Source of the DNA: Christensenellaceae bacterium
GTDB lineage: Bacteria > Bacillota > Clostridia > Christensenellales > Aristaeellaceae
DNA: 36,678 nucleotides
Direction: 5' to 3'
NCBI GenBank assembly: GCA_022510815.1
Contig: JAFLST010000003.1
Coordinates: 52,464-89,141 of the forward strand
In this document: one piece after another, positions 18,284 through 29,377 of the stretch
Layout of the letters: every line of letters begins with the position of its first letter
How positions within the stretch are numbered: position 1 is the first letter of the stretch
Translations under genes and position numbers: made by a program
Notes under the pieces: generated by a model
Told to the model about the DNA's origin: nothing
The model's database searches: none
What the model saw: only the letters and a program-made list of their open reading frames with translations

Positions 18284-18327
18284 GTCTGTGACATGGCGTA
18301 TTTTGCAGAATCGGCGGAAAGGAGATG

Positions 18328-18912
18328 ATGAATCCTTTGCTGTTCATACCATTCGCAATACTGGCGATTGAGGATGACGATGACCGCGCCTTTATGGAAC
18401 GGCTCTACATCGAGTATAAAGGGCTGATGTACGGAGTTGCCCTTTCGTATCTTCGCAACAGTGAAGACGCGCAGGACGCGGTCAATGACGCCATCATTCG
18501 CCTGATTGATAAAATATCTGAATTGCGGGAGAAAGACCGTAGCGTTTTGCGGCCCTACATTGTCTCTACTATGAAACGCACGGCGCTGAATGTCATCAAA
18601 AAGAAGAAAAACGTGCGGGAAAGGGTCCGCAATGCGGACATAGAAGAGCTTGAGGCCTACGCGGATCAAAAGGCGCAGGTAGATGCAGCCGTTATCATGA
18701 ACAGCACATCCGCTGCTTTGAGAAAAGCCGTTGAACAGCTTACGGATCGGGAAAAAACCGTTCTTCGCCTCAGATACTTTGAGGAATGGTCGGACGCTGA
18801 GATTGCGCAGTGGCTTGGGCTGTCGGAAAGCAGCATTCGCGTGTATCTTGTCCGCGCCCGGCGGCATATGTATGAGATTTTGAAGTGGCAGGGATTTGAA
18901 GATGAAGGATGA
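18328..18912 (+). CDS. RNA polymerase sigma factor, ECF-like (first module)
   Basis: A 194-residue two-domain sigma factor. Region 2 runs from about residue 22 to 90 (MERLYIEYKGLMYGVALSYL, NSEDAQDAVNDAII), and region 4 is at residues 135-185 (LTDREKTVLRLRYFEEWSDAEIAQWLG followed by SSIRVYLVRARRHMY), with the helix-turn-helix that reads the -35 element. Regions 1 and 3 are absent, as in ECF factors. AAAGGAG ends at 18324; ATG 18328 is chosen over ATG 18325 for spacing, though both are close to the site. Base composition is less GC-rich than the neighbouring genes. The next gene overlaps and encodes a membrane protein of anti-sigma type. Confidence 0.88.
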   Translation: MNPLLFIPFAILAIEDDDDRAFMERLYIEYKGLMYGVALSYLRNSEDAQDAVNDAIIRLIDKISELREKDRSVLRPYIVSTMKRTALNVIKKKKNVRERVRNADIEELEAYADQKAQVDAAVIMNSTSAALRKAVEQLTDREKTVLRLRYFEEWSDAEIAQWLGLSESSIRVYLVRARRHMYEILKWQGFEDEG

Positions 18913-19654
18913 TCTCAGAAAATATCAGCGCGAGGAGATTCTGGCGGACATTGAAGCCGACCGCCTGCGCCTGCTGTTCTATGACATGCAGGTAGAAGAA
19001 GCTGATGCTGTCGAGGCAAAATCCAGGGAGCATGAATTGGAGCAGGACAGCGAACAGATTGAACCTGCCGTCATCGAATTGATTGATAAGGGCCTGCGCA
19101 GAAGAAACAGGCGGCGGCTTGTCCGTGAGATGGTTCCTCCGCTGTCAAGGGCTGTGACGGTCGCCGCAGGTCTATTGCTGGTGCTTTTTATCGGCTTCTC
19201 AACGGCTATGGCTGTTTCTCCAAGCATTCGATATCACATGATGGGCTTGCTGATCCAACCAACCGACGAATATACCACGTTTGGTCTGGGTGAGACAGCC
19301 AGCATCGAAATACCCTCTGAATGGTATGGCAGGTATTATCCTACTTATATCCCGGAAAATTATGAACTAAGCGAGTTTTATGGGAATAAGGCGGCTCCGA
19401 GCGTCATTTTTGCCGACCCAGACGACAATGTAGTGGATTTCTCCGAGCTTGATGAAATGAGCACATTGGTGATTGATACGGAAAATGCTGCCGTTACGTA
19501 TACGACGGTTCATGACCTTCAGGCGATGGTCGTGGAAAAGGGCAGATGGGTCGCAGTCATATGGGCGGAAAATGACCGGTATTTTTGCATCATGGCGAAC
19601 ACAGACGCGGATACTGCCTTGCAAATTGCCCGCAGCGTGATCAAAATTCGCTAA
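18902..19654 (+). CDS. Membrane anti-sigma-like protein with DUF4367-like domain
   Basis: A 250-residue protein with a charged cytoplasmic N terminus (residues 1-80, rich in Glu and Arg), one membrane segment at about 84-105, and an external C-terminal domain. The external part (IPSEWYGRYYPTYIPENYEL through VVEKGRWVAVIWAENDRYFC) looks like DUF4367, commonly fused to anti-sigma proteins in Firmicutes. ATG 18902 overlaps the sigma gene by 11 bases; a TTG at 18896 is an alternative. The paired arrangement implies that the N-terminal part binds the upstream sigma factor, but no ZAS-type Cys/His motif is seen. The signal it detects is unknown. Confidence 0.75.
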   Translation: MKDDLRKYQREEILADIEADRLRLLFYDMQVEEADAVEAKSREHELEQDSEQIEPAVIELIDKGLRRRNRRRLVREMVPPLSRAVTVAAGLLLVLFIGFSTAMAVSPSIRYHMMGLLIQPTDEYTTFGLGETASIEIPSEWYGRYYPTYIPENYELSEFYGNKAAPSVIFADPDDNVVDFSELDEMSTLVIDTENAAVTYTTVHDLQAMVVEKGRWVAVIWAENDRYFCIMANTDADTALQIARSVIKIR

Positions 19655-19727: not shown

Positions 19728-19920
19728 CGTGCTCTGGGGCTTTCTCTGATATGCATTTACATGTTTCATATCAAGGCCAGAACGACATGGGCGATATCGC
19801 AATCTGCACGGGCGGCGCGAGAACGCTGGATTATGAGATGATCTTCACGGCGGCTTTTTTATGAAACGGTAGACGGTTTTTCCTCCAGCCTCGTCTAATC
19901 AGTGAAGGGAGGTGAAGCAC

Positions 19921-20421
19921 ATGAACGAAAAACGCAGCGCGTGGCTCGAGCAGGCGATCGCAAGCCACGAACCGGCGCTGTTCCGGCTGTGCTTCGCCTA
20001 CCTCGGGGATGCCGCTCTGGCAGAGGACGCGGTTCAGGAGACCTTTGTGAAGGCCTACAAGGGCTATGACCGCTATTGCCGGGAGAGCGAGGAAAAAACA
20101 TGGCTGACGCGTATCGCCATCAACACCTGCAAGGATATCCGAAAAAGCGCGTGGTTCCGGCATGTTGACCGGAGTACGGCGCTGGAGAGCCTGCCGGAGG
20201 AGATGATGCCCTTCACGGAGCGGGACGACACGCTGATCCGCGCGGTCATGGGCCTCAAGCCGCGGCTGCGGGAGGTGGTGCTCCTGCATGACGGTCAGGG
20301 ACTGACAGCCGAGGAGACAGCCAACGCGCTGGGCATCGCCCGATCGACCATGTACAAGCGCCTGACCAAGGCGCATCAATTGCTGAGAAAGGAACTGGAG
20401 GCGTGGTATCATGACCGATGA
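19921..20421 (+). CDS. ECF sigma factor (second module)
   Basis: A 166-residue ECF sigma factor. Region 2 lies at about residues 10-75 (EPALFRLCFAYLGDAALAEDAVQETFVKAYKGYDRY, TWLTRIAINTCKDIRK), and region 4 at about 112-160 (LKPRLREVVLLHDGQGLTAEETANALGI, STMYKRLTKAHQLLRKEL). ATG 19921 has GGGAGG at 19907-19912 eight bases upstream; the in-frame GTG 19912 lies inside that site. Its last 11 bases overlap the next gene. It heads a nine-gene run and is expected to direct transcription of its own operon, as many ECF factors do, but I could not identify a matching promoter. Confidence 0.92.
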   Translation: MNEKRSAWLEQAIASHEPALFRLCFAYLGDAALAEDAVQETFVKAYKGYDRYCRESEEKTWLTRIAINTCKDIRKSAWFRHVDRSTALESLPEEMMPFTERDDTLIRAVMGLKPRLREVVLLHDGQGLTAEETANALGIARSTMYKRLTKAHQLLRKELEAWYHDR

Positions 20422-21712
20422 GATTCGTCGGGCGCTGGAGGCCCGGGTCGCCGCGTCGGCAGGTTCCGCGGCGCGGCAGGAACGTATCCGGGCAAGAATC
20501 GCCGAGCTGGAAAAGGAGGAGGAGCCCGTTAGAAAACGCAAATGGCCCAGTGCCATGGCGCTGGTGTTAGCGGCGGTGCTGCTCTGCGGCACAGGGCTGG
20601 CGGCAGGGCTCCGGCTGAACCTGTTTGAATTGCTGTCCAAGAGCACTCCCGTCAATGAGAGCAAATGGGAGCAGGACCAGATCAAGCTGAGAAGCCTCCG
20701 GGAGAAGAACACGCTGATTTCGACCTCCGTCAGCGCACCGGAGGGCGTGCATCCGGAGAAGATGATTCAGGTTCATGACGCTTATTATGACGGCAATGTG
20801 CTGCTTGTGGGCTATATTCAGGGGGAGAACGAATGGTTCGATCCTTTCGTCGAGTGGACGCCGACGGAAGAGGAACTGGCGCGATTTGATGAGCCGCCGA
20901 TCCTGCGGCAAAAGGACGGCCATTACCTTTTTAGTGAGACTGCGGATTCCATCCTTCGAGAGGCGATCAGGACGGGTCAGCCATGCGGAATCAAAGCGTA
21001 TGGCATCAGCGGGTACCGCGTTTTTGAGACAACTGACGGGCAGCGGTTATGGGTTGGAAACACGAATTATGCCGAGCCGGTCGGTACGGATAGTCTCAGC
21101 TGTTATGCTGTGGAGCAATTCGCGTCCCCGCTGCCGGAGGCGATTCGCGGTCGGGACGTCATCGACATTCAGATGCCCTTCACGTTCAACACAGAGTATT
21201 TCTGGTTTGACGGCAATGAACTGTATACCTGGTTCGGTCCGGAAGAGTACGCCATGCTGACCGTGACAATCGGACGTGATCAGGACGCGCCGGCGGGCGG
21301 CCGCTACGGGAGCGAGACGATCAGCCTGAACGGTGCCGAGCTGACGGTGGAGGCTGAGGCGTTTGGCCCCTATCAGCTGCGCGTGGTGATGAGCGCCGAT
21401 GAGCCGTACTTCCTGCCGGCAATGGGCCCAGTGCGGTGGAACGCTTACGATGAAGCGGGCAGGGAACTCAGCATGTCCGTGAGCGTCTATGATGAAGCGG
21501 GTATGCTGCTCGAACCGATGGTGTGGAAAATCATCTTTAATCTGGGGCGCAAAACCGAGTATGCTTTCGCTTTCTACGATGCCTGCAGCGAGGACGGCCT
21601 GACGAAGGAGCTGCTGCTGGATCTGGTCGGCGAGGTGCCGGAGACGCTCACCGTGGTCATCACGCAGGACGACGCGGAGGCAGCGACCGTCACGCTGCGC
21701 CTTGCCGAATGA
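20411..21712 (+). CDS. Membrane anti-sigma-like protein with large external domain
   Basis: A 433-residue protein with a cytoplasmic N terminus of about 45 charged residues, one membrane helix at about 46-66 (SAMALVLAAVLLCGTGLAAGL) and an external domain of about 360 residues rich in beta-prone, acidic sequence. The start ATG overlaps the sigma gene, which with the topology suggests an anti-sigma role. The layout resembles the DUF4179 type of sigma partners, but I cannot confirm that family. No metal-binding anti-sigma motif is visible in the short N terminus. The downstream gene overlaps or abuts, so the sensor is produced with the transport proteins it may monitor. Confidence 0.7.
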   Translation: MTDEIRRALEARVAASAGSAARQERIRARIAELEKEEEPVRKRKWPSAMALVLAAVLLCGTGLAAGLRLNLFELLSKSTPVNESKWEQDQIKLRSLREKNTLISTSVSAPEGVHPEKMIQVHDAYYDGNVLLVGYIQGENEWFDPFVEWTPTEEELARFDEPPILRQKDGHYLFSETADSILREAIRTGQPCGIKAYGISGYRVFETTDGQRLWVGNTNYAEPVGTDSLSCYAVEQFASPLPEAIRGRDVIDIQMPFTFNTEYFWFDGNELYTWFGPEEYAMLTVTIGRDQDAPAGGRYGSETISLNGAELTVEAEAFGPYQLRVVMSADEPYFLPAMGPVRWNAYDEAGRELSMSVSVYDEAGMLLEPMVWKIIFNLGRKTEYAFAFYDACSEDGLTKELLLDLVGEVPETLTVVITQDDAEAATVTLRLAE

Positions 21713-21744
21713 AACACTTGCTGATCCTTGAGAGGAGTGGAAAA

Positions 21745-23115
21745 ATGCGCAGACTGCTGACCGTATTGCTCGTGATCGCGCTGACATCGTCCTACCTGCC
21801 TGCCGTGCGCGCCGCGGAAGATACTGACCACACGCTGGTCATTGCGACCCCGAACGCGGATACGGCGAACCTACGGCTGGAGTATACCTTTCTGAACCGC
21901 TATCCTGACGGCAAGATCGTCTATCTTGAATTCCATGATTATCAGGATAATGCCCTGCGGCTGCTGGCGGATCAGCTGCCCGACCTGATCGAGCTTTCCA
22001 ACGGTGAGCTGACCCGCTATACGAACGTATCGCTCATCGCGGACCTCTACAAGGAAGCTTTCCCGGACGGCTATCCCGGCGCGCTGGCCCCGCAGGCGAG
22101 ACGCTTTGTGGAGCTGGACGGCGCGATGATCGGCGTGCCGAAGTCCATCACGGTCAGACGCTGGAAAATCAACCGTTCGTGCGCAAGAAAGCAGGGCTTT
22201 GAAGTCCCGCCGAGCGACTGGACGATCGACGATTTTCTGACGCAGTATTTCGAGCCCTTCAATCCCGATGCGGACGGCGACGGCGTTCAGGACATGTCCT
22301 TCATTGAAACGGTCATGGTGGGTGCCGACATGTGGAATCCGATCATTTCCCAATACGCCGGCGACATATTGGATGAGGCCATCATCGCGCACCTTAATGA
22401 CGTCGACTATTTCCTGTCGGACGATTTTCTGAAGCAGATGGAGGTCTGCAAGCGGATCAGCACAAGCGATAAGATTCAGATCACTGCCGACGATGAGGGC
22501 AGGATCATAGCTTCCGGACTGCTGCCGCAGCTTTTCTCAATCGTTGCCATTGATGTGGGGCCCTACCGGGCGGTGGGGCGTACCGGCTTTGTGACGATTC
22601 CGCTGGAACATGCTGGCGATCCGGGCAATCCCGCTTCAGTCACCTTTTACAGCCTGACGAGCGGCGCTCCGCACCATGATCTGGCTGTCGAGTGTCTGCA
22701 GATGATGGCATCGGAGGCATATCAGGCCATCTATGACGGAACGAGCTATCACGGCGGCGGCGAGCAATGCTTCAGTGCGCAGGAACCGTCCCTGCAGATT
22801 ACCGCTGATGGCGGCGTTGGTCGGCGCAATGACATGGTTTACAGTGAGGAATACCATGCCAATGTGCGCATCGTCGACGCCAGCGTGCTGGATACCTATC
22901 ATATCACCGCGCTGACACCGTCGCCTGAACAGTATCAGGCGCAGCTGGACTTTCTGGATCAGGCAATCGCGACCTTATACGACAATCAGACGCTGCTGGA
23001 AATCAAAGGTACCGTCTTCTGGCCCGCGCTCAAGGGGTATTTCAAGGACAACATGACAGCCGAGGAAGTCGCGCGGCTGATGTATCAGCGGCTGAGAATC
23101 GCGCTGTACGAATGA
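21745..23115 (+). CDS. Extracellular solute-binding protein-like protein A
   Basis: A 456-residue exported protein. A signal peptide (MRRLLTVLLVIALTSSYLPA) ends before AEDTDH; there is no lipobox cysteine, so it is either released or held by other means. The body resembles family 1 solute-binding proteins: DGAMIGVPKSI followed by a W-K-I-N-R segment, PSDWTIDDFLTQYF, and a calcium-loop-like DADGDGVQD at residues 175-183. ATG 21745 follows AGAGGAG at 21731-21737 by seven bases; an upstream in-frame ATG at 21709 lacks such a site. It is related to the next gene along most of its length. The ligand is unknown. Confidence 0.75.
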   Translation: MRRLLTVLLVIALTSSYLPAVRAAEDTDHTLVIATPNADTANLRLEYTFLNRYPDGKIVYLEFHDYQDNALRLLADQLPDLIELSNGELTRYTNVSLIADLYKEAFPDGYPGALAPQARRFVELDGAMIGVPKSITVRRWKINRSCARKQGFEVPPSDWTIDDFLTQYFEPFNPDADGDGVQDMSFIETVMVGADMWNPIISQYAGDILDEAIIAHLNDVDYFLSDDFLKQMEVCKRISTSDKIQITADDEGRIIASGLLPQLFSIVAIDVGPYRAVGRTGFVTIPLEHAGDPGNPASVTFYSLTSGAPHHDLAVECLQMMASEAYQAIYDGTSYHGGGEQCFSAQEPSLQITADGGVGRRNDMVYSEEYHANVRIVDASVLDTYHITALTPSPEQYQAQLDFLDQAIATLYDNQTLLEIKGTVFWPALKGYFKDNMTAEEVARLMYQRLRIALYE

Positions 23116-23198
23116 GGGGAGGCACATCCATGAGAATCAAACGTTGGATCGCTCTGTTCTTAGCCCTGCTGATGATTCCTGCCATGTCGCTGGCGGAA
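23049..23198 (+). repeat. Junction repeat, copy 1 (end of gene A, start of gene B)
   Basis: Bases 23049-23115 match 24437-24503 with three differences in 67, covering the last 22 codons of genes A and B. Bases 23130-23198 match 24516-24584 with six differences in 69, covering the signal peptides of genes B and C. Only the short linkers between stop and start differ in length and sequence. Confidence 0.9.
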
Positions 23199-24503
23199 GG
23201 GGAGTCTGACCATACGCTGGTTGTCGCTCAATTCAGTGCGGCGACGTCCGATCCGCGGCTGGAATATATCTTTTTCAGCCATTATCCGGACGGCAGAATT
23301 GTCTATATGACCCTCGACAATCTTCGGGAAAGCTCCGTGCAGCTGCTGGCGGGAGTATCGCCTGACATCATTCTTTTTAATTGCGGCCAGATTCCCCGTT
23401 ATGCCAAGGTGGATATCATTGAAGATCTCTACGAGCAGGTCTTCCCTGACGGCTATCCGGAGGCGCTGGCGCCGCAGGCCCGGCACTTGATGGAGCTGGA
23501 TGGAAGGCTGATCGGTCTGGCGGAATACTGGTTGTCCGCTGGCTGGAGTATCAACCGGAGATTTGCCGAAAAGTTAGGCTATGAGATTCCCGAGGACGGC
23601 TGGACGGAGCAGGATCTCCTCGAGAAATACTTCGACAGCTATACGGGCGATACGGATGGGGACGGCGTGCTGGACGTCTGGTTCACAGGAACAGCGGCCC
23701 TCTATGGTTCTGAGAATGTACCCATTATCAGGAAGCTGGTTTATATCGGCGCCTATGACGCCATGATCAACCACGCGAATGATCTCGACTATCTTCTTTC
23801 GGAGGATTTTCTGGCGGAGCTGGAGTTCGCCAAGCTGCTCACAAACAGTGAGAAGCTCCCGACCTGCGTTGATGAAAACGGTGATTTTATTCCGGGGATA
23901 GACGTTGAACGGAATCTGTTCAACACCGTTTGGGGCAGCGGCTATTCCGGGCCGTACCGCAGCACTGCGTCTTCAAGCGGGACGAATGTGAAGATTTCCC
24001 GGCCGGCTTTCCTGAACGGTGAGCCGAACAGTGAAATCTTCGGCTATTACTATTGCCTGATGCGCGCCGCGCCCCATCACGATCTGGCGGTTGAGGTCAT
24101 GAGGATGATAGCCTCGGAAGAATATCAGGCGCTCTATGACAGCAGCGGAAAATGCTTTGGGGCCAAGGAGCCTGTCCGGCAGATCACCGCGCTGGGCGGC
24201 GCTGCAAACATCGTGCAGAATGTGGCTTACAGCGACATATATCACGCCGAGGTGCGCGTGGTTGACGCCAGCGTGCTGGGAAGATATCAGGTGAGCGATC
24301 TGGAACCCTTTCCGGAGGCCTATCAGGAGCAGCTGGAGGTGCTGGAGGAGATCGGCAATCCGATCTATGACAACTTCGCGGTGATTGAAGTCTGCGATTC
24401 CGTTTTCTGGCCCGCGTTCAGGGAATATTGCGAGGGCAACATGACCGCCGAGGCAGTCGCGCGGCTGATGTATCAGCGGCTGAGAATCGCGCTGTATGAA
24501 TGA
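23130..24503 (+). CDS. Extracellular solute-binding protein-like protein B (paralogue of A)
   Basis: A 457-residue exported protein, colinear with protein A from DHTLV near residue 27 to the shared C terminus VARLMYQRLRIALYE. It keeps the YPDG(R/K)IVY, FPDGYPEALAPQAR and DGRLIGLAEYW features and the DTDGDGVLD loop at residues 174-182. Its signal peptide is different from that of A and is almost identical to that of the following gene. There is no lipobox. ATG 23130 follows GGGGAGG at 23116-23122 by seven bases. Two paralogous binding proteins next to one permease pair suggest two ligands or a sensor plus a transporter subunit; both are inference. Confidence 0.75.
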   Translation: MRIKRWIALFLALLMIPAMSLAEGESDHTLVVAQFSAATSDPRLEYIFFSHYPDGRIVYMTLDNLRESSVQLLAGVSPDIILFNCGQIPRYAKVDIIEDLYEQVFPDGYPEALAPQARHLMELDGRLIGLAEYWLSAGWSINRRFAEKLGYEIPEDGWTEQDLLEKYFDSYTGDTDGDGVLDVWFTGTAALYGSENVPIIRKLVYIGAYDAMINHANDLDYLLSEDFLAELEFAKLLTNSEKLPTCVDENGDFIPGIDVERNLFNTVWGSGYSGPYRSTASSSGTNVKISRPAFLNGEPNSEIFGYYYCLMRAAPHHDLAVEVMRMIASEEYQALYDSSGKCFGAKEPVRQITALGGAANIVQNVAYSDIYHAEVRVVDASVLGRYQVSDLEPFPEAYQEQLEVLEEIGNPIYDNFAVIEVCDSVFWPAFREYCEGNMTAEAVARLMYQRLRIALYE

Positions 24504-24584
24504 GGTGACAAAACGATGAGAATCAGGCATTGGATGGCTCTGTTCTTGGCCCTGCTGATGATTCCTGCCATGTCGCTGGCGGAG
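24437..24584 (+). repeat. Junction repeat, copy 2 (end of gene B, start of gene C)
   Basis: Second copy of the repeat described at 23049-23198. The two copies bracket gene B, so gene B looks like a tandem insertion whose signal peptide is shared with gene C and whose C terminus is shared with gene A. Confidence 0.9.
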
Positions 24585-25562
24585 AGTCGGCTGGAAGGAC
24601 AGGTTGCGCCCGGGCGGGTGTACACGCTGCTGGCCCCGGCGGACGGGCGAATTGCATCAGTAACCTGCGCGCCCGGTGACCACTGCGAACAGGGCGACCC
24701 GGCAGCGCTTTTTCTGGAGACTGTGGTTCGCGCGACGCAGGATGGGACGGTCGTGTATGTTCCGGCTCATGAGGGCGAATCCGCGCAGACCCTGACGGAT
24801 CGATTCGGCGGCGCGATGCTGCTGATCCCTGCCGAGAAGGGGACTGTCTCCGGAAGCCTGCGCAAGAATCTGGTGGGCGCTGTTTCGTCAGGTCAGGACG
24901 TTCTGCTGAAGAGCGCGTCCGGCAGCACTGAAGGCCGGGGCGTTCTGGTGCTCTCTTGGGGAGAGATGGTGACGGTTCATGTGACGGAAGGCGACTTCGC
25001 GGCGGGTGAAAAGATCAACGTCTACGCTGGTCAGTCCCTTGAAACAGCAGACCAGCTCTGCACCGGCAGCTTTTCCGCAGCGATGGAATTCGGCCTGTCC
25101 GGCACGGGGTATATCGCCGAGCTGTTCGTGAAGCCGGGAGATCAGGTGAAGCTGGGTGACCCGCTGTTCAGCACCTTGCCGTATCCTGTTCAGGATGCGC
25201 CGGTTTTCTCCGGCAACGGCGTGGTGCTGGAGGTCTTTGTCAAGGCGGGCGATCAGGTGACGGCCGGGCAGCCGCTGGTCTCCTATTGCCTGACGGAGGA
25301 GCTGGTTATTGACGCGGAGGCGATGGAATACGCCCTGCCGTACCTGAACGAGGGTGAGAACTATACCGCGATGATTCCCGCGCTGGGCTTGGAGGGCACC
25401 GCGGCGCTCAAGGCCATTGGCGCGCGTCCCGCGGAGAATGAAGCAGGGGCGGCCTATCGGGCATCCTTCCTGCCGGAGACGATGGGAGAGGCGCTGCGCA
25501 TCGGCATGACGGCTTACATCGTCATGCCTGAGGAGCCGGAACAGGCGGTCGAGGAGCCATGA
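24516..25562 (+). CDS. Exported adaptor-like protein with repeated lipoyl-type half motifs
   Basis: A 348-residue protein with a signal peptide (MRIRHWMALFLALLMIPA) and no lipobox. Three biotinyl/lipoyl-like half motifs are visible: IASVTCAPGDHCEQGDPAAL at about 46-65, YIAELFVKPGDQVKLGDPLF at about 199-218, and VVLEVFVKAGDQVTAGQPLV at about 236-255. These occur in membrane fusion (HlyD/RND) adaptors, but no long coiled-coil hairpin is seen between them. GAGGTGA overlaps the end of gene B, eight bases before the ATG. The end overlaps the next gene (ATGA). It probably acts outside the membrane with the neighbouring MacB-like and HlyD-like proteins. The partner is not known. Confidence 0.7.
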   Translation: MRIRHWMALFLALLMIPAMSLAESRLEGQVAPGRVYTLLAPADGRIASVTCAPGDHCEQGDPAALFLETVVRATQDGTVVYVPAHEGESAQTLTDRFGGAMLLIPAEKGTVSGSLRKNLVGAVSSGQDVLLKSASGSTEGRGVLVLSWGEMVTVHVTEGDFAAGEKINVYAGQSLETADQLCTGSFSAAMEFGLSGTGYIAELFVKPGDQVKLGDPLFSTLPYPVQDAPVFSGNGVVLEVFVKAGDQVTAGQPLVSYCLTEELVIDAEAMEYALPYLNEGENYTAMIPALGLEGTAALKAIGARPAENEAGAAYRASFLPETMGEALRIGMTAYIVMPEEPEQAVEEP

Positions 25563-26545
25563 GACGCGTCGTTTCAGGCTGCGTGGCCGGACTGTGCGCG
25601 GCATGCCTGCTGCTTCTGACGCTCATGCCCCTGCACGCAGTGAACGGCATGCTGGTCGAGGTGCCGGAATTCTCAGATATTGACTTTGCCACGCTGGCGG
25701 ACGGCACGTTCATCGCATGGGCTGGCGGCTGGCGGAGCGGCTCCGGCTCGCTGGTGTGCGGGAAGCGTTATGTGTCTGCGGAGCTGCGGCGAGTCTGGGG
25801 AGACTATTTTCAGGTGCTGCCCGAGACCATGCTCAGCGGCAGGCCGATCTTCCCGAAGGATGCGGGCAGGAAGATTGTCATGATTGATGAACGGACGGCT
25901 TCGGCGCTGTTCGGTACCGTTGACTGCGTCGGCGAGATGGTCTCGCTGAGCGGCGAAGCGTACACCGTGTATGGCGTTTATCGGCGGGATGAATCGCCGC
26001 TGGGGCTGAATGCGCAGGCCTTGCCCGTTGCTTTCGTCCCTGCGGCGGAGGAGACAGGCTTCACGCGGCTATGCCTTGGGTTTGCGGATGGCGTGGATCA
26101 GGGGCTGGCGGTTTCGGCGGCGGAGAGAGCGCTGGAGAGACAGGACATCGTGGCTTTGAGCTCGGTTGATCTGTCCCGGCGGGAAAGCAATGCGCAGGCC
26201 TTCTGCGGCGTGTGCCTCCTGCTGCTTGCGCTGCTCCTGTGCGCCCTGATGCCGGCATTGCATGGGAAAAAGCGCTGGTTCTGTCTTGCTGGAAAGCTGC
26301 TGCTGATTGTCCTGCCGCTGGCGCTGGTTTTCTCACGCGTCTCGCTCGATCCGGCCATGCTGCCCGTCGAGCCGTCAGAAAAGGCCTTCGCAGATACGAT
26401 TCACGCGCTGCTGCTCCGCATGAATTCGCCGGAGCCGATCACGCACCCGTACCTGACGGCACTGGCATGGAAGCAGCGCATCGCGGCGGCGCTGCTGATT
26501 CTGGGCGCTGCGGGACTGCCGTCTGCCATGAGGAACAAGCGATGA
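25559..26545 (+). CDS. MacB-like membrane protein without a recognisable full FtsX domain
   Basis: A 328-residue membrane protein. An N-terminal helix at about 6-24 is followed by an external domain containing KIVMIDERTASALFG and VGEMVSLSGEAYTVYGVYRR at about 105-142, the signature of the MacB periplasmic core domain (MacB_PCD) found in ABC export permeases. Two or three hydrophobic segments follow at about 214-234, 241-259 and 308-325. Known MacB-type permeases carry a C-terminal FtsX domain and work with a MacB ATPase; no such ATPase is here. The ATG overlaps gene C and the TGA overlaps the permease gene, so it is translated within the same run. Role unknown. Confidence 0.65.
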   Translation: MRRVVSGCVAGLCAACLLLLTLMPLHAVNGMLVEVPEFSDIDFATLADGTFIAWAGGWRSGSGSLVCGKRYVSAELRRVWGDYFQVLPETMLSGRPIFPKDAGRKIVMIDERTASALFGTVDCVGEMVSLSGEAYTVYGVYRRDESPLGLNAQALPVAFVPAAEETGFTRLCLGFADGVDQGLAVSAAERALERQDIVALSSVDLSRRESNAQAFCGVCLLLLALLLCALMPALHGKKRWFCLAGKLLLIVLPLALVFSRVSLDPAMLPVEPSEKAFADTIHALLLRMNSPEPITHPYLTALAWKQRIAAALLILGAAGLPSAMRNKR

Positions 26546-27387
26546 AAAGAATGAACGATCCTGTTTATCCCCGGCGGGATATCCTGCTGCTGATGCCGTT
26601 TCTGGTGGGCTTTGCGATGTTCTATGTGCTGCCGCTGTTCATCTCCCCATACTACGCCTTGATCCGCTCGGCTTTCAACGCGCAGTTCGCGGGATTGGAC
26701 AATTTCAAAACCATCATGAATAACCCGTTCTATCGGCTGGCCTACGGGAACACCTTCCGCTTTACGGTGGTCGCTGCGCCGCTGAGCGTGCTGCTGGCCG
26801 TGCTGCTGGGCTTTGCGCTGCGGAAATCCGCGATGCCCTCGGTGTGGATGGCGGCATTCGTGCTGCCGATCCTCCTGCCGACGGCCTCGGTGTGCGCGGT
26901 GATGCGGCAGGTGTTCTCCAGCGGCTTTCTGTTCACCTTCGCGCCCTTTTCCCGGGAGCAGTACTGGGTTGAGCGGCTGTCGCTGTACGCGTTCTACCTC
27001 TGGAAGTACACGGGCATGAGCCTGCTGATCTTCTACGGCGCGCTGTCCAATTTCCCGCGAGATATTCTGGAAGCCGCCGCGCTGGACAACGCGGGAGCAC
27101 TGCGATGCGCGGTGCAGGTCGTTCTCCCGTGCCTCACGCCGCAGACGATCTTCATGCTGACCTACGCCTGCGCCAACTCATTTCAGATTTTCCGCGAGGC
27201 GTACCTGCTCTATGGCTCCTATCCCAACGACAGCGTGTACCAGCTTCAGCACTATATGAACAACCATTTCCTCAAGCTGAACTATCAGTATGTGACCTCT
27301 GGCGGCATTCTGTTCACGGTGCCGGTGGTGATGCTGGTGGCGCTGGGGCTTCTGATGACACGCAGACAGGAGGCGGAGCTGGCATGA
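26542..27387 (+). CDS. ABC transporter permease, sugar type (MalF/UgpA-like)
   Basis: A 281-residue inner membrane protein of the binding-protein-dependent sugar import permease family. The N terminus MLPFLVGF-like region (LLLMPFLVGFAMFYVLPLF) opens TM1, FAGLDNFKTIMNN is the usual loop, and the ATPase-coupling EAA loop is present as DILEAAALDNAG with VVLPCLTP at residues 174-200. The true start is ATG 26542, with GAGGAA upstream and overlap with the MacB-like gene stop; the frame is open much further upstream but that is out-of-frame sequence of the previous gene. It should pair with the next permease. Substrate unknown. Confidence 0.88.
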   Translation: MKRMNDPVYPRRDILLLMPFLVGFAMFYVLPLFISPYYALIRSAFNAQFAGLDNFKTIMNNPFYRLAYGNTFRFTVVAAPLSVLLAVLLGFALRKSAMPSVWMAAFVLPILLPTASVCAVMRQVFSSGFLFTFAPFSREQYWVERLSLYAFYLWKYTGMSLLIFYGALSNFPRDILEAAALDNAGALRCAVQVVLPCLTPQTIFMLTYACANSFQIFREAYLLYGSYPNDSVYQLQHYMNNHFLKLNYQYVTSGGILFTVPVVMLVALGLLMTRRQEAELA

Positions 27388-28196
27388 AGCGCGCCGTCCC
27401 GATCATCCGGTTCCTGTTTCTGGCGCTGTGCGCCTGCGCCTTTCTGTACCCCATTGTGTGCACCTTCACCGGGTCGCTGGTGAATGTCGGCACGGCGGTT
27501 CGTGTTTACGGCAAGCGGCTCATTTTGATTCCCGATCAGGTGTCCACCGACCAATATCTGATGCTCCTGCTGGGCGACAACGGCTATCTCGACGCCTTCG
27601 TGTACACGCTGCTGCTCAGCTTCACCATCGCTGCTGGAAACACGGTGCTGTGCTTCTTCGCGGCGTATGTGTTCGCGAGGGTGCGGTTCCCGGGGCGGGA
27701 CGCGCTGTTCTTCCTGATTCTGCTGGGGATGATGATGCCCTTTCAGGTGACGCTGCTGCCGAACTTCCTCACCATCCGGGCGCTGAACCTCCACGATACC
27801 CGCTGGGCGCTGCTGCTGCCGAATCTGTTCATGCCCTTTGGTGTTTATCTGATGCGCCAGTTTATCCTGCAGCTTGACAGTGCCCAATCCGCATCCTTCC
27901 GTCTCGACTGCCGGAGCACGATCAAGATGCTCGTGCTGGTGATTTTGCCGCAGGTAACGCCTGCAGCGGCGGCGCTGTTCATCCTGTCCTTCGCGCAGGC
28001 ATGGAACATGGTCGATCAGCCGCTGATCCTGCTGAGCGACAGGAGCCTGATGCCGCTGTCGGTGCTGCTGGGCGAGGACTTCGGCGGAAAAACAGGACTG
28101 CTGTTCGCGGCGAGCGTGGTCTTCATGCTGCCGATCCTGACGCTGTACGCGCTGTTTTCCGATCAACTCATTGAGGGAATGGAGAGTTTGCGATGA
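27384..28196 (+). CDS. ABC transporter permease, sugar type (MalG-like), degenerate EAA loop
   Basis: A 270-residue membrane protein that matches MalG-type permeases: N-terminal TM1, TLLLSFTIAAGNTVLCFFAAYVFARVRFPG, MMMPFQVTLLPNFL, LMRQFILQL and the downstream VILPQVTPAAAALFI and FAQAWN. The expected EAAxxDGA signature is replaced by SAQSASFRLDCRST at residues 166-179, so the ATPase contact surface differs from that of its partner. The ATG overlaps the stop of the first permease and the stop overlaps the next ATG. No ATPase is encoded in this operon. If it still imports, it would need a shared MsmX-type ATPase from elsewhere. Confidence 0.85.
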   Translation: MKRAVPIIRFLFLALCACAFLYPIVCTFTGSLVNVGTAVRVYGKRLILIPDQVSTDQYLMLLLGDNGYLDAFVYTLLLSFTIAAGNTVLCFFAAYVFARVRFPGRDALFFLILLGMMMPFQVTLLPNFLTIRALNLHDTRWALLLPNLFMPFGVYLMRQFILQLDSAQSASFRLDCRSTIKMLVLVILPQVTPAAAALFILSFAQAWNMVDQPLILLSDRSLMPLSVLLGEDFGGKTGLLFAASVVFMLPILTLYALFSDQLIEGMESLR

Positions 28197-29377
28197 CGCC
28201 GAAAAAACTGCGTTTCTCCCACAAGCTGGCGCTGGCCATGGTGCTGCTGATGGCGGTGGTGATCCTGTTCAGCAGCACCTTCCGCGCTCTGGTGCATCCC
28301 CGGGTGAGCGTGACTCGGGTGAATCCGGGAACGATCAAGCTGTCTTACGCGCAGGATGATATCCGTCTTGACCCTGATTGCCTGTCCCATTTTGCCCTTC
28401 CGCTGGCCGCTTCGGAAATGGTATCGGTACAGGAGATTCTCAAATCGCCCGGAGACCGGGTCTACAAGGGCGAAGCGATGCTTATCCTGAACAAAGAAGA
28501 AGCTGAAAACGCCTATTTTGCCGCAAAGCAGGCGTATACCGCGGCTAAGCTGGCGCTGGACGATTTCGACGCCGGTTATGAGCCGGCCCTCAAAGCAGCG
28601 AAGGCAGCGCTGGATGCAGCTCAAAGCGCCATGAACCGTTTGCAATTCGCGGCGGAAGATCGTAGAGACAGCGCTGAACAGGCGCTCGAAAAAGCACAGC
28701 GCGCCTACGATCTTCTCTCGATCGACGGAATTTGGCAGCATACGACGCGGGATGTGCTGGAAAACGACTACCGGCAGGCGGCAGAGCGCTATGAAGCATG
28801 GACGAACCTTCGCGATCACGACTATCGCATGCTTGCTGAGGAGCGGGGAACGCTCATCAGCCTGTCCGTGGCGCTGCCCTGCGAGTATACGATCCTGCCT
28901 GACGGGCGCGAGATTACCCTGTCTGTCACTGCGCCGAATGCCGACTTTGATGGCATTGCCATTGGTCAGGAAGCAAAGCTCATCACAATACCAGCCGTGG
29001 AGGAAGATCAGTTCGTTACTGTAACGGAGATCAAGCGGATAGTGCCAAATACGACGCTTACTTTTCGGTTTGTGCCGCTGGTGCCCAGTGCTTTCAGCGC
29101 GGTTGGGAAGTATGAGATCAGCTTTGACTCCTCCCAGTATCTCGCTTTGATTCCTGCCAGCGCGCTCGTGGATGACGATATGATCTGGATTGCTGAACCT
29201 GTTCGCAACGGCAGCAAGACCAGCTATGTTGCCAATCGCATGATGATCAGGCGGGCAACCGGCAATGCCTTGTACATACCCTGCAACGACTGGCTCGGCG
29301 ATACGCTCGTCATCACGCAGTGGGACAAGCCCCTGTCGGTTGGAAAAACGGTGCTGCTGCTTGATAATGATTTTTGA
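28193..29377 (+). CDS. HlyD-like membrane fusion protein, membrane anchored
   Basis: A 394-residue protein with an N-terminal membrane anchor at about 10-28, a lipoyl-like half motif (VSVQEILKSPGDRVYKGEAM) at 77-96, and an Ala/Lys/Glu-rich helical stretch at about 101-205 that is typical of the adaptor coiled-coil hairpin. Beta-rich sequence follows at 220-394 and would form the remaining barrel domains. It is the last gene of the operon; the start overlaps the second permease. Family membership in HlyD/MFP is supported by layout. Its partner might be the MacB-like protein or the permease pair; neither can be shown here. Confidence 0.75.
   Translation: MTPKKLRFSHKLALAMVLLMAVVILFSSTFRALVHPRVSVTRVNPGTIKLSYAQDDIRLDPDCLSHFALPLAASEMVSVQEILKSPGDRVYKGEAMLILNKEEAENAYFAAKQAYTAAKLALDDFDAGYEPALKAAKAALDAAQSAMNRLQFAAEDRRDSAEQALEKAQRAYDLLSIDGIWQHTTRDVLENDYRQAAERYEAWTNLRDHDYRMLAEERGTLISLSVALPCEYTILPDGREITLSVTAPNADFDGIAIGQEAKLITIPAVEEDQFVTVTEIKRIVPNTTLTFRFVPLVPSAFSAVGKYEISFDSSQYLALIPASALVDDDMIWIAEPVRNGSKTSYVANRMMIRRATGNALYIPCNDWLGDTLVITQWDKPLSVGKTVLLLDNDF

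Follow-up and report, generated by a model that had tools for sequence, protein, structure and literature searches.

Why should the permeases of a sugar importer be encoded together with parts of an exporter, behind a sigma factor and without an ATPase gene? This question is raised by a stretch of 36,678 nucleotides from a Christensenellaceae bacterium (GenBank assembly GCA_022510815.1, contig JAFLST010000003.1, positions 52,464 to 89,141), which is referred to as the window and lies on contig C23 of a 2.74 Mb genome. In the list of its open reading frames (ORFs), nine genes are packed between positions 19921 and 29377, all on the + strand and with overlaps or tiny gaps at their junctions. A sequence-only reading had seen in them either a hybrid transport machine or an envelope complex that feeds a sensor. 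Comparison with related loci, numbered L in the following, indicates that the operon belongs, as a diverged and rarely found branch, to a system conserved in the Bacillota.

Conservation of the permeases, the adaptor and the MacB-like protein

The operon encodes two permeases of the MalF and MalG types, PERM1 (26542-27387) and PERM2 (27384-28196), which both exceed the Pfam cut-off for BPD_transp_1 (28.0 and 39.7 bits, cut-off 26.4). They are preceded by MACB (25559-26545), a MacB-core-like membrane protein without coupling helix that matches MacB_PCD with 1.9e-08 and 35.3 bits (cut-off 27), and followed by HLYD (28193-29377), a membrane-anchored HlyD/MacA-like adaptor with one N-terminal transmembrane segment (TM). 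For HLYD nothing in Pfam exceeds its cut-off; its identity follows from the family profile (174.8 bits, 4.4e-52) and from the match of that family to EmrA, MacA and HlyD structures. All four proteins had been named correctly in the sequence-only reading.

A by-eye comparison of 150 related genomes, in which many of the best MACB and PERM2 matches shared a contig at distances of ~2-2.5 kb, led to the cluster. With the window MACB as query, 59 of the 150 genomes gave matches, the own genome included, and all matches outside it were at 5e-11 or weaker. As a lone query, the window HLYD found no relatives in the contig collection and matched in six of the 150 genomes, again including its own. Among 60 stretches, scored with profiles grown from them, the order (LIP)-SBPL-PERM1-PERM2-HLYD-MACB recurs, where LIP is an exported lipoyl-type protein and SBPL a solute-binding-like protein. 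The other window proteins score 254.5 (PERM1), 224.9 (PERM2), 128.4 (MACB), 310.2 (LIP), 153.2 (SBP1) and 49.1 bits (SBP2) against these profiles. Two further copies of the unit are present in the own genome, on C32 and C41. When a plasmid collection was queried with a Paenibacillus MACB, a single weak partial match was returned, from Deinococcus.

Conservation was counted in two overlapping sets of loci: L093-L152, picked partly for co-located permease and MACB matches, and L157-L236, picked by PERM1 similarity only, as the best 80 of 580 relatives. PERM1-PERM2 pairs below 230 bits are omitted (five in the permease-only set; one omitted pair, L110, which is cut by a contig end, does have HLYD). 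After removal of identical PERM1 sequences, HLYD follows PERM1-PERM2 in 109 of the 109 loci with room for it, window included, and MACB comes next in 81 of 100. HLYD likewise follows in all 73 loci of the permease-similarity-only set with room and a PERM1 of at least 230 bits; this count, and below those of neighbouring regulators, of EAA loops and of ATPases in 132 loci, were not de-duplicated. At PERM1 scores of 300 bits or more, MACB is next in 55 of 56 loci, the exception being L121, which has a second HLYD ahead of MACB; at 230-300 bits it is next in 26 of 44. The 18 misses in the latter group comprise 15 Paenibacillus loci with a solute-binding protein (SBP) in that place, L097, L127 and the window, where MACB is placed before the permeases, unlike in the relatives. 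Homologous operons without the adaptors had been named beforehand as a sign of chance co-occurrence; none was encountered for HlyD, while MacB is absent from its place in 19 of 100 loci, 15 of them from Paenibacillus.

As a control, 20 permease loci of lower PERM2 score were taken from the same genomes. Nineteen of them (PERM1 below 192 bits) have neither HLYD nor MACB, and the remaining one, L246 (PERM1 234 bits), has both and is a family member. The conservation counts together with these control loci argue that the operon is not a chance assembly, which bears out the earlier view of importer permeases and HlyD/MacB parts as one unit. Distances between PERM1 sequences also rise with the corresponding distances for HLYD (r=0.895, n=126) and for MACB (r=0.823, n=99), uncorrected for shared ancestry.

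The best PDB match of the PERM1 profile is AlgM1 (1.9e-28). The best 80 of 580 relatives that a PERM1 alignment found in named genomes come from Clostridia metagenome-assembled genomes, including Candidatus Ventricola, Alectryocaccomicrobium and Onthenecus, from many Paenibacillus, and also from Clostridium, Ruminococcus, Desulfotruncus, Desulfocucumis, Formimonas, Geosporobacter, Ruminiclostridium, Herbinix, Anaerocolumna and Butyrivibrio. At 1e-65 the permease subfamily was found in at least 120 of 308 genomes and at least 32 of 50 genera of the bacterial family, and at 1e-60 in at least nine of 398 genomes of a phylum sample, own genome included; eight candidates per genome were scored in the former survey and six in the latter, which makes these counts lower bounds. 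In a tree of PERM1 and PERM2, the window groups with L095, L096, L098 and L124 (support 0.82) and then with L097 (0.996). These six loci are referred to as clade B, and loci with a PERM1 of at least 300 bits as type A.

Upstream of MACB lie the genes for two solute-binding-like proteins, SBP1 (21745-23115) and SBP2 (23130-24503), and for LIP (24516-25562). LIP is an exported barrel-sandwich protein with matches to HlyD_3 (3.9e-10) and, in three stretches, to Biotin_lipoyl (1.6e-12), in line with the three lipoyl-type half motifs described before. SBP1 and SBP2 are 45% identical in protein sequence and match the family SBPL profile, SBP1 its C-terminal SBP half with 5.8e-45 and SBP2 with 3e-12. 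They had been described as paralogous solute-binding-like proteins. Pfam gives only a sub-threshold SBP_bac_1 match (14 bits, cut-off 26); the relatives in L093, L206 and L095 pass SBP_bac_8. The two ORFs open at 21709 and 23112, but the ribosome-binding sites and signal peptides, judged by eye, make 21745 and 23130 the likelier starts. Both SBP junctions are therefore probably short gaps rather than overlaps, a correction to the junctions as described before.

Comparison with the SBPL profile further indicates that the window SBPs are without the ~310-aa N-terminal domain carried by relatives, which in L212 matches beta-propeller-type families. A 700-aa secreted protein encoded after the Paenibacillus SBP was considered as an equivalent of this domain and rejected, as hhalign found nothing. 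The 3' ends of SBP1 and SBP2 (22978-23120 and 24366-24508) share 81% DNA identity over 143 nt, and the signal-peptide DNA of SBP2 (23118-23197) recurs in LIP with 88% identity (24504-24583), consistent with duplication or conversion within the operon. In type-A clusters, large exported-looking proteins are encoded upstream of LIP (L112:1000-3468, L099:1082-3007, L102:7806-9917); they have weak matches to repeat-type Pfam families, with LRR_5 above cut-off in L099.

Energy supply and a proposed mechanism

The MACB family profile matches solved MacB (2e-25) and YknZ (1.1e-19) across the core. The major coupling helix is placed between TM2 and TM3 in PMC5985334. By alignment and motif search, TM2 and TM3 of the window MACB are separated by just a few residues, and the ERT[RK]EIG coupling motif is missing. 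This motif is present in all four MacBs from the exporter-type loci L129-L132, three of which have an ATPase gene detected beside them, and in none of 103 other MACB matches (0 of 92 after removing duplicates). With the coupling motif gone, the MacB-like protein probably does not function as half of an exporter, and we infer a co-opted, unpowered core. In L218 (13503-14663) and similar Ruminococcus-type loci the extracytoplasmic core is kept and the TM2-TM3 region apparently lost, leaving two TMs in L218. The MACB ORF of L093 (2073-3788) has 572 aa and a C-terminal extension with a match to SCP2_2, and other long ORFs of 536-562 aa are found in L142, L145, L146, L148 and L152.

As HlyD and the MacB core are the usual exporter pair and the profiles match solved MacB, YknZ and MacA, the operon could be taken for two independent machines that share a transcript, one a CUT1 importer and the other an exporter of the MacAB/YknXYZ type with its ATPase elsewhere. 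We consider this very unlikely: among 132 loci with a PERM1 of at least 230 bits, window included, no cluster has a LolD/MacB-type ATPase inside, the cluster MACBs lack the coupling motif or, as in L218, even the region around it, and HLYD remains with the permeases where MACB is absent.

No ABC ATPase was detected in the operon, either by motif or by similarity to one MalK and one LolD-type ATPase. The absence recorded in the earlier reading is not odd for this class of permeases, since MsmX-type ATPases are established to serve such importers in trans (PMC7658222). Among the 132 loci, one cluster (L206) contains an ORF similar to MalK or LolD, and eight have such an ORF within 2 kb. Strong MalK-type ATPases lie in or beside the clusters of four of them, L206, L209, L212 and L217, the one inside the L206 cluster having OB_MalK and TOBE_2 domains; the van-linked L206, L209 and L217 look near-identical in their cluster genes and count as one lineage. 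LolD-like ORFs are found within 2 kb of L096, L151, L205 and L231, and a weaker MalK-like one near L127. The own genome encodes four MalK-type ATPases. One of them, at C56, is an orphan, as the surrounding 9.5 kb that were read contain no permease; it shares 59% identity with the L206 ATPase. Given the MalK-type ATPases of the four relatives and this orphan, the importer half probably receives its ATPase in trans. In the wider family, an EAA loop with its glycine was recognised by regular expression in 124 of 130 PERM1 and 119 of 130 PERM2 sequences.

Our preferred explanation, which we hold with about even confidence, sees the operon as a diverged form of a conserved CUT1 MalF/MalG-type importer system that carries exporter-derived parts at its outer face and depends on an ATPase in trans. 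Exported binding proteins would capture a ligand in the wall space, and the HLYD adaptor, LIP and the MacB-derived core would together build a scaffold or funnel on the extracytoplasmic side of the two permeases. Such a physical complex would work in the direction of import, with the permeases powered by a MalK/MsmX-type ATPase encoded elsewhere and the MacB-like protein itself not powered.

Regulators around the unit and the sensing alternative

At the head of the operon stands SIG (19921-20421), an extracytoplasmic function (ECF) sigma factor as described earlier, with matches to Sigma70_r2 (1.4e-16) and r4_2 (7.9e-10) in Pfam. It is followed by ANTI (20411-21712, 433 aa), for which hydropathy predicts one TM at residues 49-67. 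The TM and the place after the sigma gene agree with the earlier description as a membrane anti-sigma-like protein; no Pfam or NCBIfam family is above cut-off, hence no known anti-sigma domain was recognised. Directly before SIG, on the + strand, lies an ECF-type -10/leader motif, CGTCTAATCAGTGAAGGGAGG (19892-19912). Its pattern has three matches in the window at up to three mismatches, against 0.25 expected, and 19892-19912 is the sole match without mismatch. A relaxed pattern finds six sites in the own genome and one for the reversed control, and by position all six lie before SIG-type sigma genes. The leader was first spotted by eye and then tested by these mismatch and genome counts. It looks like an autoregulated ECF promoter. 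A simple AAC-N-CGT search gave one match in nine regions upstream of sigma genes, which does not establish a -35 element. With an ECF sigma/anti-sigma pair of its own at the head, the unit of this genome is probably expressed in response to an envelope signal.

The leader, of the form CGTCTAA...GTG...GGAGG, recurs before paralogous ECF sigma genes at C15, C33, C42, C52 and C76, an arrangement reminiscent of a single sigma cassette placed in front of several outputs. The SIG/ANTI pair itself has another copy on C52 (L009:4596-5949), with 80% DNA identity over ~700 bp; none of the transporter genes were detected on the rest of this contig stretch. Upstream of the operon in the window, probably as a separate unit, lie a second sigma factor gene, SIG1 (18325-18912, + strand, Sigma70_r4_2 2.4e-15), and that of its anti-sigma-like partner ANTI1 (18896-19654, + strand, DUF4367 9e-14).

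SIG1 homologues are found near the related clusters L094, L095, L103 (the same locus as L193) and L124. Within 4 kb, sigma genes occur in three of 31 flanked type-A loci, two of which are one locus fetched twice, and in three of six clade-B loci, window included and not all with full flanks. The sigma factor, which had been read as part of the unit, was for this reason rejected as a conserved core component. A pair of OmpR-type response regulator and kinase lies within 4 kb of 25 of 36 two-flanked loci with PERM1 scores of 230-300 bits, clade B aside, a count that has no matched Paenibacillus control. This group consists mostly of Paenibacillus and other Clostridia, with one locus from the family of the window, and the domains of the pair were checked for a few.

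In Candidatus Formimonas warabiya (L217:6632-20754), VanR, VanS and an S11-type carboxypeptidase precede the unit, and VanH, a VanI-type D-Ala-D-Lac ligase and VanX follow it; the Van proteins pass the NCBIfam cut-offs, and the carboxypeptidase is assigned by similarity to the Pfam-tested one of L206. By similarity, parts of a glycopeptide-type cluster also lie around or beside the unit in L206, L209 and partly L231. The neighbouring pair of L205 is VanR/VanS-like, below the NCBIfam cut-offs. In L096 (5579-8861), a BlaI repressor is followed by a BlaR1-type M56 peptidase fused to the binding-protein domain of this system in one ORF of 969 aa (M56 6e-34; SBP_bac_8 26.3 bits, cut-off 27). As some relatives thus adjoin VanRS-like and other two-component systems, sigma pairs, or BlaI and BlaR1 with an SBP fusion, these arrangements suggest a role of the system in envelope stress. 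Copies of vanRS next to unnamed ABC transporters are described for Robinsoniella and Enterococcus in PMC11273654, so that VanRS-ABC neighbourhoods as such are already in print. Among the window proteins scanned, which represent part of its ORFs, VanH, the D-Ala-D-Lac ligase and VanX were not found.

The link to a sensor drawn in the sequence-only reading is plausible in view of these neighbours and of the fusion. The operon might even be a sensor rather than a transporter, in which the SBPs, the adaptor and the degenerate permeases would signal the presence of an envelope ligand to the anti-sigma protein, with little or no transport by this copy, analogous to BceAB feeding BceS. The ECF pair with its autoregulatory-type motif, the erosion of the EAA loops in the window and clade B, the BlaR1 peptidase fused to a binding protein in the sister locus L096, and the frequent OmpR-type pairs at 230-300 bits are in agreement with this. 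The EAA loops are kept in most of the wider family, however, four members have a MalK-type ATPase, and type-A loci rarely adjoin regulators of either kind; stress-induced transporter genes also adjoin regulators without any sensing, and the frequency of two-component pairs still lacks its control from other Paenibacillus permease loci. We therefore regard a pure sensor as possible but rather doubtful.

Several observations also weigh against the importer with exporter-derived parts that we prefer. In the loop alignment, the EAA loop of the window PERM1 reads EAAALDNAGA (D-N-A, with Gly changed to Asn) and the EAA motif of PERM2 is lost (SASFRLDCRS); the glycine expression is failed by all six clade-B PERM2 sequences and five others. 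Because the window loops are degraded and the six clade-B PERM2 fail this test, ATP-driven transport by the window copy is doubtful, and given this erosion we are open to a sensing role or a decay of this copy. Its branch is rare, with at least five of 308 family genomes (above 400 bits; the next match at 267), and clade B was not found in 17 genomes of the same genus, with eight candidates scored per genome. L097 and L127 gave no MACB match, and with the SBP in its place in the 15 Paenibacillus loci, MACB is not essential. Finally, an adjacent two-component pair was detected in none of the 31 type-A loci, and few sigma genes were detected there.

The rarity of the branch, the lost EAA motifs and SBP N-terminal domain, the minimal MACB and the gene order unlike that of the relatives might alternatively indicate a decaying or chimeric leftover of this one genome with no present function. 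This is unlikely, as all nine frames are open and tightly packed, the operon has a promoter motif of its own, and the signal-peptide duplication between SBP2 and LIP is kept in frame. In the surroundings that were scanned, the operon is preceded by genes for purine synthesis and an ion channel and followed by a GntR-type regulator, a neighbourhood that does not explain it. A function in anti-phage defence was considered and rejected, with zero PADLOC matches for eight window proteins.

Relation to known systems and biological meaning

Importers and tripartite-type exporters are usually treated as separate. With CUT1 importers that share a multitask ATPase (the MsmX systems of B. subtilis, AlgM1M2 and MalFGK2), the unit has in common the SBP, the MalF/MalG-type permeases and the ATPase gene elsewhere; it differs in the HlyD-like adaptor that follows, mostly with a MacB core, and in the degraded EAA loops of the window. 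MacAB and YknXYZ, type VII ABC exporters also known from Gram-positives, share the adaptor and the periplasmic core of MacB, whereas the clusters described here have no LolD-type ATPase and no recognisable TM2-TM3 coupling helix. Bce-type sensing and detoxification modules likewise have ABC parts beside envelope-stress regulators, but in the operon described here no BceA-type ATPase was detected, the permeases belong to the MalF/G type, and a sigma pair instead of a kinase stands at the head. BceABS is listed in PMC5985334. The sigma factor, its one-TM partner and the promoter-like motif resemble other ECF sigma/anti-sigma pairs, with the differences that the target unit is a hybrid and the partner has no known anti-sigma domain.

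A description of the MalFG-HlyD-MacB unit was not found among the searchable papers that were listed, judged by titles and the beginnings of abstracts, with subscription papers and preprints lying outside. In the available text of PMC9689679 and PMC11273654 the words 'permease', 'HlyD' and 'MacB' do not occur, and in that of PMC4229326 neither 'ABC transporter' nor 'permease'. More tentatively, the unit may represent a class of ABC assembly of its own, with a MalK import motor on MalF/G that acts via motorless extracytoplasmic parts derived from MacA and MacB. Under wall stress it might serve at the cell surface to take up or remove wall fragments or compounds active on the wall, and to report them to sensors of the VanRS, BlaR1 or sigma type.

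If the proposed explanation is correct, extracytoplasmic HlyD and MacB parts can serve an importer, in a permease subfamily that comes with HlyD and usually a motif-less MacB core. HlyD and MacB genes that lack a neighbouring exporter ATPase in Gram-positive genomes could be explained in this way. The neighbourhoods of the unit, with VanRS-like pairs, the VanRS-VanH-ligase-VanX arrangement of Formimonas, the BlaR1-SBP fusion and the sigma pairs, provide a testable link to cell-envelope stress.

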